Shown here in pieces: positions 5,974 to 61,873 of a stretch of 64,000 bases of DNA (the first letter of the stretch is position 1; each line of letters starts with the position of its first letter). Made by a program: the position numbers and the translations under genes. The notes under the pieces were generated by a model, which was not told where the DNA came from, made no database searches, and saw nothing but the letters and a program-made list of their open reading frames with translations. Origin of the DNA: Opitutales bacterium (lineage in GTDB: Bacteria; Verrucomicrobiota; Verrucomicrobiia; Opitutales; UBA2995); assembly GCA_022824405.1 (NCBI GenBank), contig JAJDZZ010000045.1:1-64000 (forward strand), written 5' to 3'.

Positions 5974-6750
5974 ATGAAATCGTTTCCCTTTATCGCGTGT
6001 TTGGTGATCGGCCTTTGGGTGGGGTTTTTCTTTGGGAAAAACAAACCTGCTGAGATGGCTGTAGAAGAAAGGAAGCAATCGGAAACCACGAGGTTGGTTG
6101 AGGACGATGCCTCCAGGGAAAACGCCTCCTTGAAGAAAAAGATTATCCATCTGGAAGAGGAGTTGGCCGTTTTCAAATCGGAGCAAGCTTCCCGGGAATT
6201 GAAAGAGCAGGCAACAAAAGAGAAGTTTAACGCCCAAAAGCAGGCCGCAAAAGAGAAGTTGATCGCCCGCCACCTTAAAGAGTTTAAAGGCTTGTTTGAA
6301 TTGACGCCTGAACAGGCTGCTCAAATCGGTGAATTAGAATGGGAATCTTCCCTATACTGGAAGAAGTTTCATTCCGGAGAAATCAATCCAAAATACCTCC
6401 CGCCAATTGATATATATGCCGAGATCAAGGCGGTTCTGACACCGGAGCAGTTGGAAATCTATGAGGTGCACCTGGAGGAAAGGAGGAACTCGGTGGCCTC
6501 CACCGCGGCAACTTCAACCTTGGGGAGGTATCCGGTTACCCTGTTGCTCTCTGAGGAACAGAAGGACTCCCTTTATGAGAACCTTTATTCCTACTTTCAT
6601 TCGGGTCTGAGCAACGAGGTCAGAGAAGCCATTAAAAACACCGTGCCAGAAGATTATAAGGGAACGGATCGGGCGCTTATATGGGCCGCTATGGATATTA
6701 TGGATGAAGAACAATACCTCGCCCTGCTTCAATCGTTGAAGAAGGAGTAG
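5974..6750 (+). CDS. Membrane-anchored coiled-coil protein with LTPEQ motifs, unknown function
   Basis: A 258-residue protein that I do not recognise as a named family. Residues 5-20 (FPFIACLVIGLWVGFF) form one transmembrane anchor or uncleaved signal. Residues about 45-100 are charged and heptad-like, a probable coiled coil. The remainder carries LTPEQ twice, a motif seen in CpxP/Spy-like periplasmic proteins, plus a LLSEEQKDSLYENL segment. It is probably periplasmic and anchored in the inner membrane. The next gene starts 15 bp after its stop, so the two may be co-transcribed. Confidence 0.7.
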   Translation: MKSFPFIACLVIGLWVGFFFGKNKPAEMAVEERKQSETTRLVEDDASRENASLKKKIIHLEEELAVFKSEQASRELKEQATKEKFNAQKQAAKEKLIARHLKEFKGLFELTPEQAAQIGELEWESSLYWKKFHSGEINPKYLPPIDIYAEIKAVLTPEQLEIYEVHLEERRNSVASTAATSTLGRYPVTLLLSEEQKDSLYENLYSYFHSGLSNEVREAIKNTVPEDYKGTDRALIWAAMDIMDEEQYLALLQSLKKE

Positions 6751-53947: not shown

Positions 53948-55096
53948 GTGAGTTTTCTGGAACAATTCAGCCAATTCGATTGGGATCGGGTCTCCGCAAG
54001 TATCCGGGGAAAATCCCTCAAGGATGTCGATTCGGCTCTGGTCAAGCCGGATGGACGGTTGGATCTGGAGGATTTCAAGGCTCTGATATCCCCCGCCGCC
54101 ACTCCCCGCCTGGAGCAAATGGCCCAACGGAGCCATCGCATGACGGTGGAGCGGTTCGGACGCATCCAGCAACTCTATGCCCCCCTTTATCTATCCAATG
54201 TCTGCAGCAACGTTTGCACTTATTGCGGTTTCAGCGCCATCAATCGCATTCCCCGAAAAATTCTTACGGAATCCGAAATGGCCTTGGAGTACCAAGCTTT
54301 AAAGGAAATGGGTATAGACCATATCCTGCTGGTAACCGGCGAGGCCAACCGGCGGGTCGGGGTGGAATACCTCATCGGCGCCTTGAAAATGGCCCGTGGG
54401 TATTTCTCCAGCATATCCATCGAGGTCCAACCCCTCGACCGGGAAGCCTACGAGGCGCTCATTCCGCATGGACTCAGCTCCGTCCTGGTCTACCAGGAAA
54501 CCTACAACCGGGAAGCCTACGGGGATTATCACCTCAGTGGGATGAAAAAGAATTTCGACTACCGTCTGGAAACACCCGACCGTTTGGGCCGTTCCGGGGT
54601 GAAGAAAATCGGATTGGGCGCGCTTTACGGCTTGGAGGATTGGAGAACGGACACCTTTTTTGTGGCCCTGCATTTGAATTACCTGGAGAAGCAGTATTGG
54701 AAAACGCGTTACAGTATTTCCTTTCCCCGCATTCGTCCCCATGCCGGGGATCAACAACCCAGGTCGCTCATGACGGACCGCGATCTCGTGCAGGTCATCT
54801 GTGCCTATCGCATATTCAACCGGGAACTGGAACTTTCCCTTTCCACCCGCGAGAGCGAGTTATTTCGCGACCATGCCTTCAAACTGGGAATAACGATCAT
54901 GAGCGCCGGGTCCAAGACCAATCCCGGCGGTTACCGGGTGGAGCCCCAGTCCCTGGAACAGTTTGAAATCTCCGATGAGCGCAGTCCGGCCCGGATTGCA
55001 GAGATGCTGCGCCGGGAAGGTTATGAGCCGGTTTGGAAAGACTGGGATTCCACCTATGACGGATTCCCGGCCAAGGCCAGCCTGATTGAGGTATGA
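53948..55096 (+). CDS. thiH: 2-iminoacetate synthase ThiH
   Basis: A 382-residue radical SAM enzyme that cleaves tyrosine to dehydroglycine for the thiazole ring. The cluster motif CSNVCTYCGF (CxxxCxxC) is at residues about 88-97. GEANRRVGVEYL, VYQETYNREAYG, KIGLGALYGLEDWR and SFPRIRPHAG are family blocks. It starts with GTG one base after the thiG stop and its stop overlaps thiF (ATGA). Use of ThiH rather than ThiO fits anaerobic or low-oxygen life but also occurs in aerobes. Confidence 0.95.
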   Translation: MSFLEQFSQFDWDRVSASIRGKSLKDVDSALVKPDGRLDLEDFKALISPAATPRLEQMAQRSHRMTVERFGRIQQLYAPLYLSNVCSNVCTYCGFSAINRIPRKILTESEMALEYQALKEMGIDHILLVTGEANRRVGVEYLIGALKMARGYFSSISIEVQPLDREAYEALIPHGLSSVLVYQETYNREAYGDYHLSGMKKNFDYRLETPDRLGRSGVKKIGLGALYGLEDWRTDTFFVALHLNYLEKQYWKTRYSISFPRIRPHAGDQQPRSLMTDRDLVQVICAYRIFNRELELSLSTRESELFRDHAFKLGITIMSAGSKTNPGGYRVEPQSLEQFEISDERSPARIAEMLRREGYEPVWKDWDSTYDGFPAKASLIEV

Positions 55097-56220
55097 GCGC
55101 TTTGACGCCAGAGGAAGTCCTGCGCTACCAGCGACACCTGACCCTGCCTCAATTTGGGGAAAAGGCCCAGTTGCAGTTGAAAGAAAGCCGCGTACTGGTG
55201 ATTGGAGCGGGTGGACTGGGTTGCCCCGCCCTGCAGTACATGGCCGCGGCCGGGGTGGGCAGGCTCGGCATCGTCGATTTTGACCGGGTCGATGTTTCAA
55301 ACCTGCAACGGCAGATCCTTTTTACAGAGGATGACGTGGGAAAGCCCAAAGCGGAAGTCGCAGCCGAACGATTGAAACGCATGAATCCCTGCATTGAAGT
55401 AGAGGCGATGAATGTGCGATTTGGCGCCGACAATGCCCTGGAAATTTTGAGCCGTTACGACCTCATAGTGGATGGCTCAGACAATTTTCCCACTCGTTAC
55501 CTGGTGAACGACGCCTGCGTATTGGCTGGAAAGCCATTGATTTATGGGGCCATTCATACCTTTCAGGGTCAGGTCAGTGTGTTCAATTTCCAAGGCGGGC
55601 CAACTTATCGCTGCCTGTTTGCCCAACCGCCCGATCCCGGAGATGCGCCCAATTGTGCGGAGATTGGCGTATTGGGTGTCCTTCCCGGGATCATCGGAAC
55701 CGCCCAGGCCTGTGAAGCCATCAAGGTCATAACCGGCGTGGGGGAACCGCTGTCGGGAAAGTTGCTGATGTGGGATGCCCTGAGCATGAAGCAGCAGGTT
55801 ATCAGATTCAGTCGCGATCCGGACCTTCCTCCCATAACAGAACTCAGGGAGATCGAATTTGCCTGCCCAGGGCCTGATCTGCCCGATGGCGCGGAAATCG
55901 AAACAGGCGCCTTCAGGTCTCTCATCGAGGGGGGTTCACCCGTTCAGGTGCTGGATGTGCGGCTTGGCTGGGAACGCGCCATGGCGAAAATAGATTCCGT
56001 GCACATTCCCCTGGGAGATCTGCGGAGTGGGCGGGCGGACCCAGGCCAGGCCGGCCTCGATCCGCAGGTTCCTACCGTAGTGTATTGCCGGAGCGGGCAG
56101 CGCAGCCTGAATGCCCGGCAGGTTTTGGCCGATCGTTATTCTTTCTCCCAGGTCTTCAGCCTTAAAGGGGGTATTAAGGAATGGGCCCGGCAATTCGATC
56201 CGTCACTTCGCGTCTACTAA
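55093..56220 (+). CDS. thiF: ThiF/MoeB-type adenylyltransferase with rhodanese domain
   Basis: A 375-residue E1-like enzyme. RYQRHLTLPQFGEKAQ, the nucleotide loop VIGAGGLGCPALQY, DFDRVDVSNLQRQ and DGSDNFPTRYLVND show an intact adenylation domain. YRCLFAQPPDPGDAPNC and GVLGVLPGIIG follow. Residues about 280-375 are a rhodanese domain with the persulfide Cys in YCRSGQRS. In this operon it should activate ThiS and deliver sulfur. MoeB or molybdopterin use is the alternative. The zinc CxxC pairs of E. coli ThiF are not seen. Confidence 0.92.
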   Translation: MSALTPEEVLRYQRHLTLPQFGEKAQLQLKESRVLVIGAGGLGCPALQYMAAAGVGRLGIVDFDRVDVSNLQRQILFTEDDVGKPKAEVAAERLKRMNPCIEVEAMNVRFGADNALEILSRYDLIVDGSDNFPTRYLVNDACVLAGKPLIYGAIHTFQGQVSVFNFQGGPTYRCLFAQPPDPGDAPNCAEIGVLGVLPGIIGTAQACEAIKVITGVGEPLSGKLLMWDALSMKQQVIRFSRDPDLPPITELREIEFACPGPDLPDGAEIETGAFRSLIEGGSPVQVLDVRLGWERAMAKIDSVHIPLGDLRSGRADPGQAGLDPQVPTVVYCRSGQRSLNARQVLADRYSFSQVFSLKGGIKEWARQFDPSLRVY

Positions 56221-57023
56221 AAATACGGTTTACCATTTTGGCCGGCCATCCCCCATTTGTCCTTACCGTATCCGGATCGGACGCTTCCGGTGGGTCCGGT
56301 CTGCAGGCTGACAATCGCGCCATACTGAATCGCGGTGGATTTCCGCTCAATGTGGTTACCGCCCTCACCCTGCAAACCCCGACCGGCGTGCAATCGATCG
56401 ATACCTGCGACCCCGAGCAGGTTCGCCTGCACCTGAGCGGACTTTTGAAATCCTATCCGGTGAAATCCATTAAAACGGGGATGTTGGGAAACGGTGGTAT
56501 GGTGAAGGTTGTGACAGAGGTAATTTCTCAGTTCCGTCAAATTCCTCTGGTGGTGGACCCGGTGATGCGATCCACCAGCGGTTGTTCCCTATTGGATGAG
56601 GATGGCATCCGGGAACTGAAAAATGAGCTGTTGCCAATATGCGATCTGGTTACACCGAACCTGACCGAATTGACCGAATTGACGGGACGTGATAGCATTT
56701 TGTCCGGATCCGATGAGTCGGATGCCGCCCGACAGTTGCTCGAAACCGGTTGCGGGGCCGTTTTGGTCAAGGGCGGGCATCGCAAGGGAGATTCAGTGAG
56801 TGATATGCTGTATTCACGCGATGGAAAACAGGAATTCCCCGGCCAACGCGTCGATACGCCCAACACCCGTGGGACCGGTTGCTCGCTGGCTTCCGCCATC
56901 GCGGCCGGATTGGCCGGCGGCCGCGATTTGCAAACGGCCATTGAGCGGGCCAAGTCGATGGTGCAGAACAGTTTGGAACTCCATAAGGACGACCTTTGGC
57001 CGGGAAGTGGGCCCGCTTTGTAA
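56181..57023 (+). CDS. thiD: Hydroxymethylpyrimidine (phosphate) kinase ThiD
   Basis: A 280-residue ribokinase-fold enzyme that makes HMP diphosphate. VSGSDASGGSGLQADNRA, SIKTGMLGN, VVDPVMRSTSGCSLL, LVTPNLTELTELTG, VLVKGGHR and NTRGTGCSLASAIAAGLA are diagnostic. ATG 56181 overlaps thiF by 40 bp; TTG 56238 would give a more usual N-terminus. It is the last gene of the thiamine operon. Confidence 0.93.
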   Translation: MGPAIRSVTSRLLKIRFTILAGHPPFVLTVSGSDASGGSGLQADNRAILNRGGFPLNVVTALTLQTPTGVQSIDTCDPEQVRLHLSGLLKSYPVKSIKTGMLGNGGMVKVVTEVISQFRQIPLVVDPVMRSTSGCSLLDEDGIRELKNELLPICDLVTPNLTELTELTGRDSILSGSDESDAARQLLETGCGAVLVKGGHRKGDSVSDMLYSRDGKQEFPGQRVDTPNTRGTGCSLASAIAAGLAGGRDLQTAIERAKSMVQNSLELHKDDLWPGSGPAL

Positions 57024-57090
57024 CCCCATTTGGGGAGGTTGGCAAAGCCACTCCTTGCCAAAAAGTAAGGAAAATGAAAAAAATTGGGCA

Positions 57091-57327
57091 ATGATTGTGA
57101 CGATTACCAGTAAAGGGCAAATCACCTTGCCGGCGTCTGTTCGCAAAGAACTGAAAATCAAGACCGGCGATAAGTTGGATATGGAGGTTACCCCCGATGG
57201 AGCGATACTGGGGAGACCTGTTACAAATGATCTTTCCTCCCTGGCGGAGGTGCTGCCTCGGGCAAAGCGGAGGTTGAGCCTGGAAGAAATGGATGCCGCC
57301 ATTCTAAGGGGAGTGTCCGGAATATAG
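57091..57327 (+). CDS. AbrB/MazE-type antitoxin-like DNA-binding protein
   Basis: A 78-residue protein. IVTITSKGQITLPASVRKELKIKTGDKLDM is a textbook SpoVT-AbrB swapped-hairpin domain (quoted parts: TSKGQITLPASVRKELKI). The C-terminal part LSLEEMDAAILRGV resembles tails of antitoxins that pair with PIN toxins. Yet no toxin follows: two bases after its stop begins a gene for the C-terminal half of a SWIM zinc-finger protein. It may be an orphan antitoxin or the regulator of that unusual pair. A Shine-Dalgarno-like AAGGAAAA lies upstream. Confidence 0.85.
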   Translation: MIVTITSKGQITLPASVRKELKIKTGDKLDMEVTPDGAILGRPVTNDLSSLAEVLPRAKRRLSLEEMDAAILRGVSGI

Positions 57328-57329
57328 CG

Positions 57330-58457
57330 ATGAACCGAAAATTGAACGAAGATGGTTCCGCAAAAAAGCAAGACGTCGAATTGAAAGGGGACCTTGATAT
57401 GGTTCTGGTCGACAGATTCGGTCAGTGCGGTGAAGGCCTGGAACACTTCTGGGGTATGCCCCGCCTCGGAAGCGATTGGTCGGCCATGAGAGATTGGTTG
57501 AAGCGCCGTTTGGAAGCACACGAGATGACTGATTCCCATGACTATGAGAGAAACCAGATCTCCAACTGGCTGATTCTCACCTTGGAAAAGACTGGGTGTG
57601 AGAACGAGATAATACCCTTATGCGAACGCGAAGCGCCGATCACACTCAGCTATGACCGCTTGGTGGCTCGCCTCATTAGAGAGCGCCGTTGGGATGAGGC
57701 CCTCCGCTGGTGTCTGCGGGGAATGGATGCGGTATCCGACAAGTATTCAGGCGTCGAAGAAATCCTTCATGGGCAGTTACGGACGATCCATGAGCTTAGC
57801 GGCAATCCTCTCGCCGGATTGGCCATCGAGGCGGAGAAGTTTTTTGCTTCTCCCGACTTGAGCGGTTTCCAACATTTATGCATGGCCGCCGGCAAGCAAG
57901 GGATCGGCAAAGGGGTCGATGCTTGGGCGCGGCACTTTCTTGAAACAGGCCGCCGACCTGATTCCGTTAAGAATACCAGGATCGACCCGGAAACCGACTG
58001 GCCCCTGCCCGCTTCGGAAATCAAGATACCTGAATTTTCTCCGGTCACTGAGGCGCCTATGACCGGGATACTGATCCGGTTGGCTATTTCTGAGAAAAAG
58101 CCTGAAGAGGCGCTGAAATGGTACGACCATGAACACCACGATAGAGGAGGATCTCATCTATCGGATTTTTCCCTCGATACCGAGGTGGCCGAGGCGGTTG
58201 GGTCTACCCACCCGGATCGGGCTATAGCGATTTGGAAGAAAATTGCGGAGAAACATATAGCCCGGGTACAGCGCAGCGGGTATGAGGCAGCGGCTCCCTA
58301 CCTGCGCAGGGTAAAAAAGGCGTTCATCCGGACCAGCCGCAAGCAGGATTGGGAGGCGTATCTGGCTTCTTTGCGAAAGAGGAACAGCCGTCGACCGCGG
58401 TGCATGGAGGTGCTGGACCGGCTGAAGGTAGAGCCTCGGAGAATTATCGATACTTAG
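57330..58457 (+). CDS. C-terminal-half SWIM zinc-finger-type protein lacking the finger
   Basis: A 375-residue protein without signal peptide. From about residue 75 it resembles the helical, TPR-like C-terminal half of large SWIM zinc-finger proteins: NWLILTLEKTGCENEIIPLCE, RRWDEALRWCLRGMD, EEALKWYDHEHHD, HPDRAIAIWKKIAEKHIA, and YLRRVKKAFIRTSRKQDWEAYLASLR (quoted as YLRRVKKAFIRTSRKQDWEA). The SWIM CxCxnCxH motif and the N-terminal half are absent. It is directly downstream of an AbrB-type antitoxin with a 2-bp gap. Function is unknown; the family assignment is from memory of the motif pattern. Confidence 0.65.
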   Translation: MNRKLNEDGSAKKQDVELKGDLDMVLVDRFGQCGEGLEHFWGMPRLGSDWSAMRDWLKRRLEAHEMTDSHDYERNQISNWLILTLEKTGCENEIIPLCEREAPITLSYDRLVARLIRERRWDEALRWCLRGMDAVSDKYSGVEEILHGQLRTIHELSGNPLAGLAIEAEKFFASPDLSGFQHLCMAAGKQGIGKGVDAWARHFLETGRRPDSVKNTRIDPETDWPLPASEIKIPEFSPVTEAPMTGILIRLAISEKKPEEALKWYDHEHHDRGGSHLSDFSLDTEVAEAVGSTHPDRAIAIWKKIAEKHIARVQRSGYEAAAPYLRRVKKAFIRTSRKQDWEAYLASLRKRNSRRPRCMEVLDRLKVEPRRIIDT

Positions 58458-58715: not shown

Positions 58716-60452
58716 ATGATTCAAACACATCAATTATCCTTATTTGATGGTGCCAATGACTCGGCGTTGCCCCTGAGCGATGAAGTCGTTTCCGCAATTA
58801 ATGCTCTCGCGGATAATAGAAAGGAAAAATCCCACGGTTCAATTTACACCCGATCGGAAGTTGTCCAATTTATCCTGGACTTACTCGACTACAAACCCAG
58901 TGAACCTCTTCGCTCCAAGCGAATCCTCGAACCCTCTTTCGGGGGTGGCGACTTCCTTCTTCCCATCATCGACAGACTGATTGATTCCTTGCAGTTGGAT
59001 GGTCAGGGGTTGAGTTACGAGTCCATTGCGAACTGCATATTCGGAATCGAGCTCCATAAGGAGACCTTCATCAAAACCAGCCGAAAGGTCGTTGGGTATC
59101 TCGTGGAACGCGGATTTGACGAGAGAACCGCTTGCCTGTTGGCAGATGCCTGGCTCAAGCAAGGCGATTTCCTGCTCGAACCGCTCGAATCCAATTTTGA
59201 CTTTATCACCGGCAATCCCCCCTACGTGCGACAGGAACTGATACCAGGTCCGTTGCTATCCGAATATAAGCTTCGCTACACGACACTATTCGACCGGGCA
59301 GACCTCTACATCCCATTTATTGAGCGTTCGCTAAATTTGCTCCTTTCAACTGGCTCACTGGGATTCATTTGCTCCGATCGTTGGATGAAAAACCGATACG
59401 GTGGACTCCTCCGTTCGCTCGTTTCGAGAGAATTTCACCTTGCCGTTTATGTGGATATGGTGGGCACCAATGCTTTTACTGAAGAGGTTACGGCCTATCC
59501 GGCAATAACGGTTTTCAACCGAACTTCAGGCGAAAAGACCAGCATCGTCCACCGACCGCCAATTTCCTCTTCAAGTCTTTCTGAAATTGCGACTGCGATA
59601 GCGACAAATAATCCTGGAAGCGCCCCTGGGCTCTTCCGCAAAGCCTCGATTCAGCAATGTGGAACGGAGCCATGGATTCTTGAAGCGAGTGATCGAATCG
59701 CATTATTAAGGAGGCTGGAGAAGGACTATCCCTCTATTGAAGATGTGGGTTGCCGCGTGGGCATTGGCGTCGCCACAGGCGCCGACAGGCACTTCATCGC
59801 TCCCTACGAATCACTGGCTGTGGAGCCCGACAGAAAACTTCCACTCGCCACGACAAAAGACATTTCAAGTGGACAGGTTAAATGGCGTGGACTCGGTGTC
59901 ATAAATCCCTTCGAAGAAGATGGAAGGCTGGTTGATCTCGAACAGTATCCACTTCTCAAAAGCTATCTGGAGGCTCGAAAGAATGACATCGCTGGACGGC
60001 ATTGCGCAAAGAAGTCTCCCGATCGCTGGTATCGAACTATTGATCGGATATGGCCTGATTTGGCCAAGGAGCCGAAGCTCCTGATACCTGACATCAAGGG
60101 TGAAGCTCACATCGTTTATGAGAGGGGTGAGTTATATCCTCATCACAATCTCTATTATGTTACGTCAACCGAATGGAACCTGCACGCGCTTCAAGCCGTT
60201 TTGCTTTCAAGCATTACCAAATTGTTCATTGCGGCTTATTCGACCCAAATGCGCGGAGGTTATCTCCGTTTTCAGGCGCAATACCTCCGCAGGCTTCGAT
60301 TGCCGGATTGGAGATCCACGGATGATGAACTTCGCAATAAACTTACCGAGGCGGGATTTACCCGCGAATTGGCAGATTGCAATGACGCAGTCTTTGAACT
60401 GTATCGGCTTTCACACGAGGAGCGGGCTTTACTGGATGCAACCGGAGATTAA
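58716..60452 (+). CDS. Type II DNA adenine methyltransferase (PaeR7I/XhoI type)
   Basis: A 578-residue N6-adenine methyltransferase. The SAM-binding motif I is [14 protein letters not shown] (residues 70-83) and the catalytic motif IV is NPPY at 167-170. [18 protein letters not shown] is a typical lead-in. The C-terminal half ([13 protein letters not shown]-like [19 protein letters not shown]) is the target-recognition region of Eco57I/PaeR7I-type enzymes. The endonuclease gene follows after 6 bp. The predicted target is CTCGAG from the neighbour's family, by inference. Confidence 0.9.
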
Positions 60453-60458
60453 AGAATT

Positions 60459-61202
60459 GTGGCATTGGATCTTGTTAATTTTGAAGAAAAAGCCTGTGAG
60501 GCTGTAAAGGCATTCTGGGGAAACCGGGATGCAGCTCGTCAAAGGCAGATCAAATCTGGGAAAGTTGATCAAGGCGAACGAGCAGGCGTCACGGCGGGCA
60601 AGAATATGGATGGCTTCATTGCCATGATTCTTGATGTAGTTAAGGCAAATGGGATGCCGAATGCCGATATTCATTTGGATAGAGCTGTACTGACCTTGCC
60701 AGGGTTTTTCAGACCGACGAAGCTGTGGGATCTTCTCGTTATCCAGGACAAGGAACTGATTGCGGCGATTGAACTGAAAAGCCAAGTGGGGCCATCTTTC
60801 GGCAACAATTTCAACAACCGGGCAGAGGAGGCTATAGGCACCGCTCATGATTTTTGGACGGCCTACCGAGAAGGAGCCTTTGGAGAGCAACCACGCCCAT
60901 TTATCGGTTGGCTGATGCTTGTAGAAGATGCGGAGAAATCTCGCTCTCCGGTTCGATCCGCCTCTCCTCATTTCGAAGTTTTCGGGGAGTTTCAGGATGC
61001 TTCCTATCTCGAACGATACGACCTGCTGTGCCGGAAGCTTATGAAAGAGGGTCTGTATTCGGCCGCTACCCTTCTGACCTCGCCGAGAAACGCCGCACGA
61101 TCCGGCGCCTTCTCAGGAATGTCAAGTATGACCAGTTTGAAAACGTTCATTACTTCCCTGGCTGGACATATTGCCGCCGAGGCTGCGAGATTAAACAAGT
61201 AG
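60459..61202 (+). CDS. PaeR7I-family type II restriction endonuclease
   Basis: A 247-residue enzyme, nearly the same length as PaeR7I (246). The PD-(D/E)xK centre is visible as D91 in LWDLLV and E105-L-K107 in [28 protein letters not shown] and [15 protein letters not shown] are conserved in this family, which includes XhoI and cuts C/TCGAG. GTG 60459 is the start. No stop or frameshift interrupts it, so the pair may be active. Recognition of CTCGAG is inferred from the family. Confidence 0.9.
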
Positions 61203-61400
61203 GGCCCAAAAGCGTAAAGAAAATGCCTTACAAAACGGTGAAGGCAGCGGCCACAAGCGCCGTTCCTGACCCTTTTCTATTTTTCTTGATGGAACAACGA
61301 GTAGCACAAGCAGTTGAACTCACTGCAAAAGATGAAGGCGGATAAGGTTGGATCAATCCGGATTCGACCTTGGATTGAGATGGATAGTTGCCAAAGTTTA
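61203..61400. other. Junction between the restriction genes and a broken toxin gene
   Basis: No gene is seen. A minus-strand frame crosses the region but loses all similarity to PIN domains before it. The foreign segment probably ends here. Confidence 0.5.
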
Positions 61401-61455
61401 AAGGGGAGCCGGCATCATGGGTGTAAAGCAAGAGGTTTGCATCGGGAATGATCAT
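61401..61455 (-). pseudogene. N-terminal stub of a PIN-domain toxin (VapC type)
   Basis: The minus-strand frame opens IIPDANLLLYTHDAGSP, the exact pattern of a PIN-domain start with its first catalytic Asp, and then changes to unrelated sequence after about 18 residues. Its ATG overlaps the antitoxin stop by four bases, so the operon structure is preserved but the toxin is lost. The break lies next to the restriction-modification genes. Confidence 0.7.
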
Positions 61456-61730
61456 TTCAGTTTCTCTCGCATTCTGCGCGTGGTCCTCTTGAACCGGTCG
61501 ACTTCGATATCGGTATCGAGGTCGGTGAGGTCGGCCGGATCAATTCCCGGAAGCATGCCCATGGGCCGGGATGCAACGACGAATTTAGCCCTATTGGCCG
61601 GTAAATTCGATTTTCCCAATGCCTTGCGTATGGCGTCGTTTAGGGTCATTTTGAAACTCTTGCGGGAGCGGTGCATCTTGTCCCGGATCAGCTTTTCAAC
61701 GTCCGGGTCGAGGGTGACAGTGGTTCTCAT
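61452..61730 (-). CDS. Orphan VapB-type antitoxin
   Basis: A 92-residue protein. RTTVTLDPDVEKLIRDKMHR is a ribbon-helix-helix start and NDAIRKALG the second helix. The tail (LPGIDPADLTDLDTDIEVDR) is like those of antitoxins with PIN partners. Its former partner survives only as an 18-residue stub. ATG 61730 is used; three further residues are possible from 61739. It could still act as a repressor. Confidence 0.75.
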   Translation of the reverse strand: MRTTVTLDPDVEKLIRDKMHRSRKSFKMTLNDAIRKALGKSNLPANRAKFVVASRPMGMLPGIDPADLTDLDTDIEVDRFKRTTRRMREKLK

Positions 61731-61873
61731 GGCATACATCGTGAAATCAAATTATTAGCTGTTAAAACATAATTTAATTGGATGCTGAAAGGGGATGGGA
61801 TCAGCCTTGCCAATTCTGCTTTTGACCCATTGGGCCGTTGGTTTTGTAATACCGGTCAAACCATAAGCCAAAA
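61731..61873. other. Short intergenic region
   Basis: It holds the divergent start regions of the orphan antitoxin and the DUF6807 gene. No repeat word or RNA gene is seen. An ATAATTTAATT stretch at about 61769-61780 may belong to a promoter. Confidence 0.4.

Follow-up and report, generated by a model that had tools for sequence, protein, structure and literature searches.

Among the known systems closest to the locus studied here are toxin–antitoxin operons of the VapBC type, in which the gene of a DNA-binding antitoxin of the AbrB/SpoVT type is directly followed by the gene of a PIN-domain toxin. In Shigella flexneri, VapB (SpoVT/AbrB type) has an AbrB-fold N-terminal domain and a short C-terminal tail, an inverted-repeat operator is located just 5′, and the operators bound by VapBC complexes lie in their own promoter regions (PMC3384007). 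A VapB can also be retained without its VapC. This is the case for VapB14 of the Sulfolobales, which has been conserved among species and for which a regulatory role is demonstrated (PMC10127717). The other relevant group are the SWIM zinc finger proteins whose C-terminal half is helical (PF04434; candidate defense family PDC-S62 of PADLOC). The PDCs are unvalidated candidates, which were found by guilt-by-embedding (PMC12988326).

The locus described here is part of the window, by which we mean the whole stretch of 64,000 nucleotides from an Opitutales bacterium that was analyzed. Its vapB shares the domain architecture and, with a probable operator, the operator position of the Shigella system but has no PIN toxin; the antitoxin is orphaned and its last few codons are changed, whereas the operon is complete in the relatives G001 and G007. 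As with VapB14, a VapB is retained without its VapC, yet the orphan of the window is found in one genome and beside a replacement scar. The gene that follows is homologous to SWIM proteins across their C-terminal ~350 residues but lacks both their N-terminal domain and the zinc finger. We are highly confident that this pair is an accident of DNA replacement, which brought a truncated SWIM gene next to an orphaned vapB; the reading as a new two-gene unit is not supported.

In the list of open reading frames, the AbrB/MazE-type gene has its ATG at 57091 and its stop codon at 57325–57327. The frame of the 375-residue protein starts with an ATG at 57330 and ends with the stop codon at 58455–58457, which leaves a gap of 2 bp between the two genes. 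The coordinates agree with the earlier note, which had described a small AbrB/MazE-like gene nearly joined to a larger gene and had placed both between the thiamine genes (thiD ends at 57023) and a restriction–modification cluster. The features of the locus are collected in Table 1.

Table 1. Features of the vapB–SWIM locus and of the adjoining replaced segment (positions in the window).
Feature	Position	Strand	Basis
Probable VapB operator, inverted repeat CCTTGC-N6-GTAAGG	57053..57070	+	Motif comparison, three genomes
Orphan vapB, AbrB/MazE-type antitoxin, 78 aa, final ~3 codons replaced at the junction	57091..57327	+	PF04014, G001 match
Left junction, end of G001 homology, three codons short of the vapB stop	57318..57319	.	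blastn
C-terminal half of a SWIM protein, without the finger and the N-terminal ~290–310 residues, 375 aa	57330..58457	+	Homology; helical model
Eco57I-like N6-adenine DNA methyltransferase	58716..60452	+	Pfam Eco57I 6.7e-20; PADLOC MTase_II PDLC03313 6.3e-234
XhoI-type restriction endonuclease	60459..61202	+	Pfam XhoI 4.5e-97; PADLOC REase_II PDLC03540 5.1e-117
Second vapC, truncated: first 19 codons (MIIPDANLLLYTHDAGSPL) left, then unrelated in-frame sequence	61228..61455	-	G001 comparison
Right junction, G001 homology resumes	61396..61397	.	blastn and base-level view
Second antitoxin, intact, toxin-less; resembles ribbon-helix-helix VapB by eye	61452..61739	-	ORF list, G001 comparison

The larger protein had been taken for the C-terminal half of a SWIM protein without its finger, and this assignment is borne out. 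The protein aligns with residues ~296–677 of the 679-residue SWIM protein from genome G188 (36% identity, E = 4.5e-47) and so resembles full-length SWIM proteins in their C-terminal half, as a member of the family should. A CxCx(n)CxH zinc finger motif is absent from it, as is a match to PF04434, and a search for the SWIM finger or the N-terminal half elsewhere in the same genome found neither. No Pfam domain scores above the cut-off; DUF6880 (4.7e-3) remains below it. The structure prediction is all-helical with a mean pLDDT of 79 and gave weak TPR/solenoid matches only, and the sequence search against solved structures likewise returned weak matches. The predicted fold would be a generic helical repeat, for which no toxin or nuclease match was found. 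The frame is fully open over its 375 codons and retains 29 of the 37 invariant positions, and it may still yield a protein. Most likely, however, the SWIM fragment is a leftover that has no function of its own.

The product of the smaller gene matches MazE_antitoxin in Pfam (PF04014, E = 8.8e-13) and lp_hng_hel_AbrB in NCBIfam (E = 2.3e-13), as expected for an antitoxin of a VapBC operon. The toxin gene is missing directly downstream in the window; a PIN-domain gene is present behind the AbrB gene in all nine relatives, from eight genomes of the order, according to Pfam and the open reading frames, and the window copy is the exception. In G001, the sole genome of the same genus that we searched (assembly 91% complete, 4% contamination), the order thiD-vapB-vapC is found at the same place. 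The thiD and vapB genes are 74 and 87% identical to those of the window, and the stop codon of vapB overlaps the start codon of the next gene, which codes for a 131-residue PIN protein (PF01850, 2.7e-9) and is thus the toxin gene of a vapBC operon. A vapB-vapC pair with overlapping genes is also present in G007, which belongs to the same family. With the VapC proteins of G001 and G007 as queries, tblastn detected chance-level matches only in the window and no vapC remnants in or after the SWIM fragment; the best match (E = 0.024) is gapped and lies inside the SWIM frame. In the genome of the window, the G001 vapC has its best match (33%) on another contig and none that is closer. Between the window and G001 the dN/dS of vapB is 0.09. 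Therefore, vapB was conserved during most of the time since the two lineages split.

The comparison with G001 also delimits the replaced segment. By blastn, positions 55001–57318 of the window align to positions 224–2544 of the G001 contig L046 (82%), and positions 61397–61786 to 5983–6372 (87%). Both junctions are sharp and are bordered by conserved flanks on both sides within one G001 contig; in the base-level view of the left junction the identity is at chance level from about 57331. Between the junctions the window has 4.1 kb with the SWIM fragment, the Eco57I-like methyltransferase and the XhoI endonuclease, and G001 has 3.4 kb with vapC, other open reading frames and most of a second PIN gene on the opposite strand. 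The alignment itself shows where the junctions lie, what was replaced and which toxins are missing. We infer that the replacement was a single event and that the SWIM piece arrived together with the restriction–modification genes. Since intact genes are likelier to be ancestral and the left vapBC operon is also found in G007, the arrangement in the window is derived. A misassembly in the window or in G001 is still conceivable; it would need to have created both junctions with synteny on either side. We note that the same 8 bases, AAGGGGAG, occur near both junctions (about 57304–57312 and 61400–61410), either as a possible microhomology of the replacement or by chance.

At the right edge, a second toxin–antitoxin module is interrupted. 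Its vapC is intact in G001, where it codes for a 146-residue PIN protein (PF01850, 9.4e-11). The antitoxin of this module has no match in Pfam, and its dN/dS against G001 is 0.21.

In front of the orphan vapB, the putative operator appears to be nearly intact. G001 and G007 carry a perfect CCTTAC-N6-GTAAGG at the corresponding position, from which the repeat of the window differs by one mismatch (CCTTRC-N6-GTAAGG in the three genomes). With up to one mismatch allowed, the motif has a single occurrence in the window and a single one in the locus of each relative, each time just 5′ of vapB. As the putative operator is kept with a single mismatch and VapBC complexes bind their own promoters, vapB and the SWIM fragment may be cotranscribed under the control of VapB. 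Directly before the vapB start (57072–57090), G001 and G007 have another GTAAGG, which is likely the ribosome-binding site. This second copy is altered to ATTGGGCA in the window, and the change may weaken vapB translation.

The SWIM family is present in 16 of 388 genomes of the phylum (about 4%), which, judging by the organism names of the loci L050–L052, is Verrucomicrobiota in the sense of GTDB. The relatives, whose assemblies are mostly fragmented, carry mostly full-length genes with the finger. Full-length members of about 650–680 residues are found in G188, G279, G274, G132, G320, G329 and G413 and at the planctomycete locus L053. Several others are independently broken. In G004 the finger is deleted and a short N-terminal remnant is kept, and the copies of G207, G210 and G237 are truncated. 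In G010 (L018:7131–9102) the finger part and the C-terminal part are in two overlapping frames, which could reflect a frameshift, a split gene or a sequencing error; these parts directly precede genes for a C5-methyltransferase and an Eco29kI-type endonuclease. A profile search of the genome contigs with the closer alignment rows gave four SWIM loci, and no homologue of the fragment was found in plasmid, phage and viral collections. The PDC-S62 profile of PADLOC recognizes full-length relatives (3.2e-17 and 3.1e-14) and matches the protein of the window weakly (4e-4) over its C-terminal 75 residues. Full-length relatives which match PDC-S62 are located at L021:7755–9794 and L020:7757–9745; by eye, there are dynamin- and Hsp70-like genes near the former and type III restriction–modification-like genes near the latter. 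In our literature search, we found no paper which joins the SWIM zinc finger, restriction–modification and defense islands, and none which names PDC-S62. XhoI endonucleases are encoded in 24 of the 388 genomes. We rejected the idea that SWIM genes regularly accompany XhoI-type restriction–modification systems; in the genomes that have both (G207, G210, G320, G424, G271 and G128), the two lie on separate contigs.

The earlier note had put forward a possible new two-gene unit with the layout of a toxin–antitoxin operon. In a genuinely new pair of this kind, the finger-less SWIM protein would be the toxin and the AbrB protein the antidote. The 2 bp gap and the operon-like order would fit such a pair. 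However, the partner of the antitoxin is a PIN gene in each of the nine relatives, and the junction falls inside the end of vapB. Nor does a short AbrB gene repeatedly precede the homologues of the 375-residue protein. None is seen in the open reading frame maps, and none is present among the upstream neighbors of seven SWIM homologues checked with Pfam, which gave HEAT, SEC-C, AA_kinase, DUF1648, ORF6N, TPR and, in one case, none. The generic helical fold without nuclease or toxin match also speaks against a toxin. We therefore consider a new toxin–antitoxin pair extremely unlikely. The fallback offered in the same note, a truncated SWIM gene that lies by chance behind an orphan antitoxin, agrees with the sequence comparison with G001.

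It is also unlikely, although less so, that the C-terminal helical domain has been exapted as a working stand-alone protein which is cotranscribed with vapB and regulated by VapB, perhaps as a component of the adjacent restriction–modification defense segment. The open frame with most of its conserved residues and the near-intact operator in front of the pair are consistent with this idea, as are the PDC-S62 matches of full-length relatives, some of which adjoin restriction–modification genes. Further, the protein of the window groups with the finger-less and finger-split copies of G004 and G010 when a tree is built from the C-terminal part (support 0.93). However, these related copies are broken at differing points and have no AbrB gene, and broken copies retain fewer of the invariant residues (window 78%, G004 70%, G010 76%, G237 76%) than intact copies do (86–95%). 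That the toxin-less VapB has turned into the autoregulator of a still working finger-less SWIM domain, possibly with a role in phage defense beside the XhoI-type system, we regard as very unlikely. If true, a toxin–antitoxin promoter would have been captured by a defense gene through replacement.

We favor the accidental origin of the pair and suggest that it came about in the following way. The ancestral locus would have run from thiD through a vapBC operon and further genes to a second toxin–antitoxin pair, which has a PIN toxin and faces the opposite direction, as is still the case in G001. About 3.4 kb of it would then have given way to 4.1 kb of DNA that carries a SWIM gene reduced to its 3′ part and the XhoI-type restriction–modification genes. 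On the left, the joint would have been placed three codons short of the vapB stop, with vapC being wholly lost, and the right joint 19 codons into the second vapC, which truncated the second toxin. Both antitoxins would have ended up without their toxins, and the ATG of the finger-less SWIM remnant would by chance have come to lie 2 bp past the stop codon of vapB. The orphan VapB might still bind to its operator and thereby control how the fragment is expressed.

In summary, operon-like spacing can originate from a replacement junction, and as a unit the vapB–SWIM pair is ordinary. For the history of this genome the replacement means that a restriction–modification segment took the place of the toxin halves of two adjacent toxin–antitoxin modules. 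That both antitoxins survive agrees with what one would expect, namely that the deletion of a toxin is tolerated when the antitoxin is spared.
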